Below, piece after piece: positions 1,637 through 22,180 of a stretch of DNA of 31,555 nt; positions within the stretch are counted from its first letter, which is position 1; every line of letters starts with the position of its first letter. The translations under genes were made by a program, and so were the position numbers. The notes below the pieces were generated by a model. That model saw only the letters and a list, made by a program, of their open reading frames with translations, ran no database searches and was not told the origin of the DNA. Origin of the DNA: a bacterium (lineage in GTDB: Bacteria; UBP6; JAFGXH01); contig JAMOQH010000153.1 of the NCBI GenBank assembly GCA_027064085.1, forward strand, positions 1-31,555, written 5' to 3'.

Positions 1637-1712
1637 GGTGATCCCAACGGGATTCGAACCCGTGTTACCGCCGTGAAAGGGCGATGTCCTAACCGGACTA
1701 GACGATGGGATC
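1636..1712 (-). tRNA. tRNA-Glu (anticodon TTC)
   Basis: The minus strand folds as a full cloverleaf. The acceptor stem GATCCCA pairs with TGGGATC, the D arm contains GGTTAGGAC, and the anticodon stem TCGCC/GGCGG encloses the loop CTTTCAC with anticodon TTC. The T arm is the canonical GTTCGAATC. The 3' CCA is encoded (TGG at 1636-1638 on the plus strand). It lies four bases downstream of tRNA-Lys in the same transcript. Confidence 0.96.
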
Positions 1713-1715
1713 ATG

Positions 1716-1788
1716 TGAGCCACGAAGGATTTGAACCTTCGACCACCTGATTAAAAGTCAGATGCTCTACCTACTGAGCTAGTGGCTC
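1716..1788 (-). tRNA. tRNA-Lys (anticodon TTT)
   Basis: On the minus strand the acceptor GAGCCAC pairs with GTGGCTC, the D arm is AGCTCAGTAGGTAGAGC, and the anticodon loop CTTTTAA carries TTT. The T arm contains GGTTCAAATCC. Unlike the neighbouring tRNA-Glu, the CCA end is not encoded, so it must be added by the CCA-adding enzyme. Confidence 0.96.
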
Positions 1789-21076: not shown

Positions 21077-21103
21077 AACCTAAATTAAATGGGAGGATTA
21101 ATG

Positions 21104-22180
21104 ATGAAATATGAAGTGTATGTTCCAGGAATAACAGAGGACGATTTTGATATAACACTGAAAATAAAAGCAAAATCTTGGATTGATGCATTAAAAATTG
21201 GTCTAAACCGTTTAGGTGAAGATGCAAAACTTATTAAAAATCTAATGATAGACATCATGGATGATGAATCTATACATGTTACAGAAACAATAAATAATAG
21301 AGTTTTCAGAATAAAGGAACTCGTTGAAGCAAAACCTGTTGATAAGGATAAGTCGGCGACTTATCCTCCTAAAGAAGAAAAACCTGTAGTTGAAGCAAAA
21401 CCTGTTGTGGAAGCTAAACCTATTGGTAAGGATAAGTCGGCGACTTATCCTCCTAAAGAAGCTAAACCTGTAGTTGAAGCTAAACCTATAATGGAAGCTA
21501 AACCTGTTGGTAAGGATAAGTCGGCGACTTATCCTCCTAAAGAAGCTTCTAAAGAAAAAAGCTTAAAAAGTAGATTCGCTCAACATTTTGATATTGAAGA
21601 TGAAGTAAAAGTAAAAACAGATACAACACAAAAAATTAAATTAGGTAGAGAAGTTGTTCAGAAGAAAATAGATGTTGAAGAAATCCTATCAGATTTATAC
21701 TTTGATATTGCTGATATAGACAAAGAGAAGAATATAATGAATGCAATGGAAATAGTTATGGACTTAACAATGAAATATATGGATAGTGAATCAGGTTCCG
21801 TATATTTGGTTGATTTAGATAAAAATGACATCATTTTTGCAGCAATAAGAGGCCCAAAAGCAGAAGCATTAAAGAAATTAAATCTAAGAATACCTATGGG
21901 TATGGGTATTGTAGGGTTTTGTGTTGAAGAAAATGTTTCTATTGCTATTTCCGAAGTTAATAGAGACCCACGATTTTATAGAGCAATCTCTCAAAAACTT
22001 GGTTATCCTACATATAGTATTTTATCTATTCCTATCTATAAAAACGGTAGGGTTTATGGAGCTATACAATTAATAAATAAAAAAAGCAGTAATAAGTTTA
22101 CTTCTGAAGAAGTATCAGTTGTTGATTATATTGCAAATCATGCAGCAGACTATCTTGAAAGAAAATACAATAAATTCTAG
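21104..22180 (+). CDS. GAF-domain protein with 28-residue tandem repeats
   Basis: This protein has 358 residues. The ATG at 21104 has the best spacing (7 nt) from GGAGG; the ATG just before (21101) is also possible. An ORF start at 21089 lies in the ribosome site itself. Residues 1-75 are a compact, unassigned domain (KYEVYVPGITEDDFD...). Residues about 78-148 are two and a half units of a 28-residue repeat containing DKSATYPPKE and EAKPV blocks, a likely flexible linker. Residues about 206-355 are a GAF domain (SGSVYLVD, RIPMGMGIVGFCVEENVSIAISE, YSILSIPIYKNGRVYGAIQLINK), a small-molecule sensor in the cytoplasm. There is no output domain such as a kinase or cyclase, so it probably acts by protein contact. 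The DNA of the repeat carries a GC-rich palindrome in each unit. Confidence 0.88.
   Translation: MKYEVYVPGITEDDFDITLKIKAKSWIDALKIGLNRLGEDAKLIKNLMIDIMDDESIHVTETINNRVFRIKELVEAKPVDKDKSATYPPKEEKPVVEAKPVVEAKPIGKDKSATYPPKEAKPVVEAKPIMEAKPVGKDKSATYPPKEASKEKSLKSRFAQHFDIEDEVKVKTDTTQKIKLGREVVQKKIDVEEILSDLYFDIADIDKEKNIMNAMEIVMDLTMKYMDSESGSVYLVDLDKNDIIFAAIRGPKAEALKKLNLRIPMGMGIVGFCVEENVSIAISEVNRDPRFYRAISQKLGYPTYSILSIPIYKNGRVYGAIQLINKKSSNKFTSEEVSVVDYIANHAADYLERKYNKF
21345..21367. repeat. GC-rich palindrome, copy 1
   Basis: The arms AGGATAAGTCG and CGACTTATCCT are perfectly complementary around a single central G. The codons TCG and GCG at its core are rare in this AT-rich window. Confidence 0.9.
21429..21451. 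repeat. GC-rich palindrome, copy 2
   Basis: Identical to copy 1 over all 23 nt, in the same reading frame, 84 nt downstream. Confidence 0.9.
21513..21535. repeat. GC-rich palindrome, copy 3
   Basis: Identical to copies 1 and 2 and again 84 nt on, just before the repeat array ends. Confidence 0.9.

Follow-up and report, generated by a model that had tools for sequence, protein, structure and literature searches.

The window considered here, i.e. the whole stretch of 31,555 nucleotides that was analysed, contains a gene in which one GC-rich palindrome occurs three times, and this raises the question of whether the palindromes are a repeat of the protein, a DNA or RNA structure under selection, or the product of a mobile element. 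The gene is an ORF of 363 amino acids (21089..22180, + strand, from the ORF list), with a conserved N-terminal part (about residues 1–80), a repeat-bearing linker (about residues 80–155) and a C-terminal GAF domain (residues 220–353, Pfam E 5.4e-12). The AlphaFold2 model of this protein, computed from the single sequence without alignment, has a mean pLDDT of 36, too low to be used for any statement on disorder in the linker. The repeats form a tandem array (21326..21547, + strand), which TRF describes as 2.6 copies of an 84-bp unit with 92% match; the alignment of the units shows one hairpin per full unit, and also 18-nt subrepeats of the EAKPVV type. As stated in the initial annotation, and confirmed by exact search and TRF, the 23-mer AGGATAAGTCGGCGACTTATCCT is found unchanged at 21345–21367, 21429–21451 and 21513–21535 (+), at a spacing of exactly 84 nt, its arms are perfect 11-mers flanking a single G, and the three copies are read in the same frame (GAT AAG TCG GCG ACT TAT CCT), as DKSATYP. 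The expectation for this 23-mer in shuffled sequence is 0, even at 3 mismatches.

The GC content of the palindromes is 48%, compared to 26% for the window. The codons TCG and GCG had been described as atypical, and rightly so: the gene uses them in the palindromes only, and in the rest of the window they account for 10 of the 591 serine codons and 12 of the 400 alanine codons, respectively. The conservation of the palindrome next to subrepeats that vary had also been put forward as a sign of selection or of recent insertion. Within the array, this argument is weak: of the 84 positions, 9 distinguish unit 1 from unit 2 and all of them are outside the 23-mer, but this has a probability of 0.047 by chance, so that the identity is only marginally unusual and is well explained by recent duplication. 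For conservation, the strong evidence is found elsewhere in the genome.

The palindromes of the window are members of a family of hairpins that is dispersed in this genome (3.65 Mb in 195 contigs, GC content of about 27%) and that was counted on the basis of pattern and covariance-model searches. The exact pattern GGATAAG..CTTATCC is found at 36 sites and the widened pattern GGRYRAG-N7-CTYRYCC at 71 sites, the reversed-pattern control being 0 in both cases. The covariance model, built from 50 distinct copies, brings the number to about 96 distinct sites after strand merging, including one non-coding site that was added by hand. The oriented consensus is GTAR followed by GGRYRAG-N7-CTYRYCC, for an element of about 25–30 nt. 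In the window, the model matches three REP-like copies, all on the + strand, around the exact 23-mers: copy 1 at 21342..21370 (ATAA foot, hairpin GGATAAGTCGGCGACTTATCC, TCCT; E 2.0e-8), copy 2 at 21426..21454 and copy 3 at 21510..21538 (GTAA foot, E 1.0e-9 in both cases). GTA is present at the foot of most of the 70 sites considered (GTAA 36, GTAG 15, GTAC 3, GTGG 3); the strict GT[AG]G tag is found in 18 of the 70, the last base of the tag being relaxed, and several exceptions are reversed copies, in which the tag is on the opposite side. A subfamily of about 10 genes has in common a context of about 70 nt, NSKDKTxSYPTKNTNGE. The assembly is broken within hairpin arrays at the contig ends C24/C72, C56/C116 and C105/C53 (L046/L051, L049/L055, L053/L290); each pair looks like the halves of one gene, and the copy number is probably underestimated.

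In the pattern search, the hairpin family is missing from two genomes of the same taxonomic family and is at control level across the rest of this small phylum (27 other genomes were compared), so that its expansion is lineage-specific among the genomes compared. The pattern GTARGGATAAGN7CTTATCCT has 3 scattered single matches in the GTDB 220 contigs, which is about the chance number, and the pattern search of IMG/VR also returned scattered single matches; no further host was found in these two collections, which may not include the records of the genome that contains the window. The inserts of TilS and ABC-F are missing from the orthologs in the two same-family genomes. These genomes are also the nearest ones compared for the window gene, whose orthologs keep both ends; their linkers are not simply empty, they are long, unrelated to that of the window, and without hairpin. 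The sister genus has a different REP family, GTAGAGACGTTTCATGAAACGTCTC, present in 14 genomes (loci L243-L258, L297-L336): among 46 examined copies, 26 are in ORFs, most of those in one frame, coding for ETFxETS, and, when species are aligned with each other, sites at orthologous places are filled in some and empty in others. The placement of this second family indicates that the in-frame, intragenic habit of REPs is phylum-wide, with unrelated hairpin sequences. We consider it very likely that a single GTAG-type REP, inserted in frame in a linker and then amplified in tandem with a unit of 84 bp, gave rise to the three palindromes of the window.

We infer that the copies of this family were moved by a RAYT, from the hairpins that RAYT genes contain and from the cleavage of GTAG hairpins by the RAYT of E. 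coli, as cited in PMC3733652. The genome of the window contains Y1/HUH transposase genes and, with the C185 transposase as query, it appears that the hairpin array of contig C192 is itself inside a RAYT gene. The C192 and C185 RAYTs match the NCBIfam model REP_Tyr_transpos (NF047646) with E values of 2.9e-15 and 4.7e-19, and with scores (56.4 and 68.7) that do not reach the curated threshold of 80 bits, probably because inserts split the domain; a phmmer search of the PDB with the C192 RAYT gives no match at E 0.1. In both ORFs, hairpins of the family are in frame between the HUH and tyrosine motifs, and so is a near-family hairpin in a third RAYT, that of C182. The closest RAYT-borne hairpin differs from the core of the window hairpin at 4 of 21 positions, and exact copies of the hairpin of the C192 RAYT are also present on C179 and C189. 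We surveyed 18 RAYT ORFs, all from the phylum except for one from outside it: 17 have internal hairpins, 25 of the 26 hairpins are located between the HUH and Tyr motifs, and each lineage has its own hairpin type, often in the flanks too. A further Y1 transposase is encoded at L042:1310-1925 (G000 C32), among restriction-modification-like genes, with palindromes of a different type (AACAAGGGGTTGCAACCCCTTGTT, GATGCA repeats) in and ahead of its gene.

An alternative, although we find it improbable, is that the hairpins were copied from gene to gene without any transposase, through template switching primed by the hairpins, gene conversion among repeats, and slippage. Such processes could leave an inverted duplication of host sequence like that around the Maf copy, arrays of half units (see below) and the context shared by the subfamily of about 10 genes, but they do not predict the constant GTAR tag at one foot, which is the published recognition mark of RAYTs, nor the presence of same-family hairpins inside RAYT genes. 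The hairpin of the Maf gene (L054:1470-1550, G000 C112) is reversed and in another phase; the host sequences that flank it in inverted duplication are CAATTACAATATTGGGT ... ACCCAATATTGTAATTG, and the Maf protein with the hairpin is about equal in length to that of a relative. On C189 (L040:1440-1980, G000), five identical hairpins form a non-coding array that adjoins a 45-nt inverted repeat at the 3' end of a gene, in which the last codons of the gene are repeated in inverse.

What sets the family apart is the position of the hairpins: 86 of the 96 copies are genic (ORFs of at least 90 amino acids), in 52 ORFs that include DnaX, FtsK, CheA and TilS. Since 92% of random positions are also in ORFs of that size, this means that the family does not avoid genes. 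Of the 86 genic copies, 81 are in sense orientation and in phase 2, which gives the peptide D[K/E]xxx[Y/H/R]P. When each ORF contributes a single site, 50 of 52 are in sense phase 2, compared to 16.6 expected if all stop-free placements were equally likely (P 1e-23, a value that treats the ORFs as independent, whereas some have the context of about 70 nt in common and each of three pairs of contig ends probably belongs to a single gene). If only stops were avoided, about 35 of the 52 ORFs would have the hairpin in another placement, so that an additional filter, on the peptide or at the insertion step, must be assumed. In sense orientation, phase 1 is hydrophobic (mean hydropathy +0.93) and phase 2 is hydrophilic (-1.31), which makes it plausible that insertions are subsequently filtered at the level of the peptide. 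Antisense phase 2 would be hydrophilic too, and it is open in less than half of the cases; the peptide filter alone does not account for the missing copies in this placement. According to Pfam, the insert has an interdomain position in TilS, CheA, FtsK and ABC-F, and that of DnaX lies past the domains annotated. A Ser/Thr kinase has the insert downstream of its kinase domain, and the RDD and 5'-nucleotidase proteins have it ahead of their domain. Among the proteins scanned, only Maf has the insert within a domain.

The use of a single frame and orientation could also be taken to mean that it is the protein that repeats, i.e. that selection acts on the peptide D[K/E]xxx[Y/H/R]P of the linker, which is indeed hydrophilic and contains a proline, and that the palindrome merely results from the codons of this peptide. 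This is very unlikely. The common 7-codon stretch of the hairpin encodes 52 distinct 7-mer peptides, and paired changes in the stem turn K..Y into E..R or E..H; the hairpin and its tag are retained in the non-coding copies too; and TCG and GCG are rare codons here. A mere protein repeat was expected to be confined to this gene and to lose the palindrome while keeping the peptide, but we find the opposite, the hairpin being kept while the peptide varies. The covariation of the stems is marked: 94.9% of the stem cells are paired, compared to 34–49% when the 3' side is slid, and there are 63 double changes, compared to 25 after shuffling (0 of 500 shuffles). Compensatory changes occur in 5 of the 9 stem pairs; the middle pairs swap TA/CG and AT/GC, and one inner pair shows 4 Watson–Crick types. 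The search pattern permitted G-T and A-C at the variable outer pairs, so the covariation is not forced by the pattern.

A function of the hairpins in the mRNA, or as a binding site for a protein, had been suggested too, and selection could in principle maintain them for translation pausing, mRNA stability, or the binding of gyrase or of a nucleoid protein. The RNA fold of the window 23-mer is stable (-11.9 kcal/mol, z -5.3) and, like the covariation of the stems and the sense orientation in genes, it speaks for such a function; yet we hold this explanation to be highly improbable, because the host genes have no functional relation, the family is missing from the same-family relatives, and the half-site GGATAAG is no more frequent in the window, away from the palindromes, than expected by chance. 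The structure of the arrays also argues against it. Within genes, the spacings of the arrays are divisible by three (84, 63, 60, 45, 42, 33 nt, etc.), with exceptions only in C80 and C18, whereas those of the non-coding array of C189 are not. In at least nine gene arrays (L031, L032, L038, L027, L048, L050, L051, L059, L063), one full hairpin comes first and is followed by short tandem units that consist of the loop and the 3' arm only, the 5' arm being unrepeated. These units possibly originate from slippage bounded by the hairpin; they fit slippage after insertion, and argue against a selection that keeps each hairpin. Other candidates were rejected: an Rfam family (Rfam matches nothing in the window but a tandem pair of tRNA genes at 1639–1788, minus strand), an uptake-type or binding half-site motif (the chance level of GGATAAG in the window), and a terminator or CRISPR (most copies are in frame within long ORFs).

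The initial annotation had also considered that the palindrome is mobile, that a linker tolerates it, and that its insertion was followed by tandem amplification, as in Rickettsia, and it is this reading that is supported by the dispersal of the copies in unrelated genes, the covarying stems, the linker positions, the absence from orthologous sites and the transposase genes that bear a similar element. Most likely, the family spread in the genome by the action of a RAYT (TnpA-REP, subclass 2.4-like) that would recognise the GTAG-tagged hairpin in single-stranded form. One copy would have entered the linker of the GAF gene in the sense direction, in a stop-free phase that codes for the hydrophilic, proline-containing peptide KDKxxxYP. 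Selection after insertion would filter frame and site, by acting against placements with stops or hydrophobic peptides. The linker would then have grown by tandem duplication of the hairpin-bearing 84-bp unit, all window copies deriving from a single insertion.

This suggests that mobile DNA is here a source of new protein segments, and the locus provides a countable case in which mobile DNA lengthens the linkers of proteins, with subsequent tandem growth. It is possible, without being probable, that the REP/RAYT system of this phylum is adapted to genes, in the sense that the hairpin has evolved into a harmless sense-frame linker, genes are its main habitat, and it is a continuing source of linkers in essential proteins.

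Parts of this behaviour are already known from the sources compared, which describe both intragenic REPs and REPs within RAYT genes. The GTAG REP elements, as presented by Di Nocera et al. (2013, PMC3733652), resemble the present family in that they are hairpins of 20–40 nt with an unpaired GTAG-type tag at the foot, form subfamilies and tandem clusters, and coexist with RAYT genes in the genome. Most of their copies are intergenic, the intragenic ones being a known minority that is found in several species and counted as members, whereas here 90% are in ORFs, nearly all in one frame and orientation, and the tag is more often GTAA than GTAG. We found no description of such a REP family (90% genic, one frame and one orientation) in the REP literature compared. 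According to Quentin et al. (2018, PMC6006769), TnpA-REP subclass 2.4 is marked by in-frame REPs that interrupt the tnpA-REP gene in the interval from HUH to Tyr; by this precedent, the present family belongs to the REP/RAYT world. The RAYTs described above share this internal REP, and the long canonical REP of the subclass has GT[AG]G at its foot, a tag that is relaxed here at its last base. The RAYTs of C192, C185 and C182 have no hairpin outside the gene within 250 bp; we call them 2.4-like, on the basis of the internal REP rather than of a tree.

The palindromic elements of Rickettsia (RPE), as covered in the review PMC10969869, are likewise palindromic mobile DNA found in frame in unrelated genes, but they are about 150 bp long and no cognate transposase is named for them there, whereas the elements described here have about 25–30 nt and RAYT genes carry the hairpin. 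The intragenic RPE-4 and RPE-6 are CGTC-tagged REPs according to PMC3733652. We do not file the present family as an RPE, although it behaves like one; the described length and the tag set it apart. PARCEL repeats are also palindromic coding repeats in tandem arrays, but they are presented in PMC2996958 as 75-nt repeats of an amphipathic protein motif, unlike the GTAR-tagged hairpins that are dispersed singly in housekeeping genes here. In the literature compared, REPs are termed extragenic, and no mover is named for the palindromes that Rickettsia has in its genes; GTAR-tagged REPs with linked RAYT genes, located mainly in coding sequence, in one frame, in about 50 genes (replication, division, chemotaxis), connect both phenomena, and the spread of protein-coding palindromes, a long-standing question, can now be tested.
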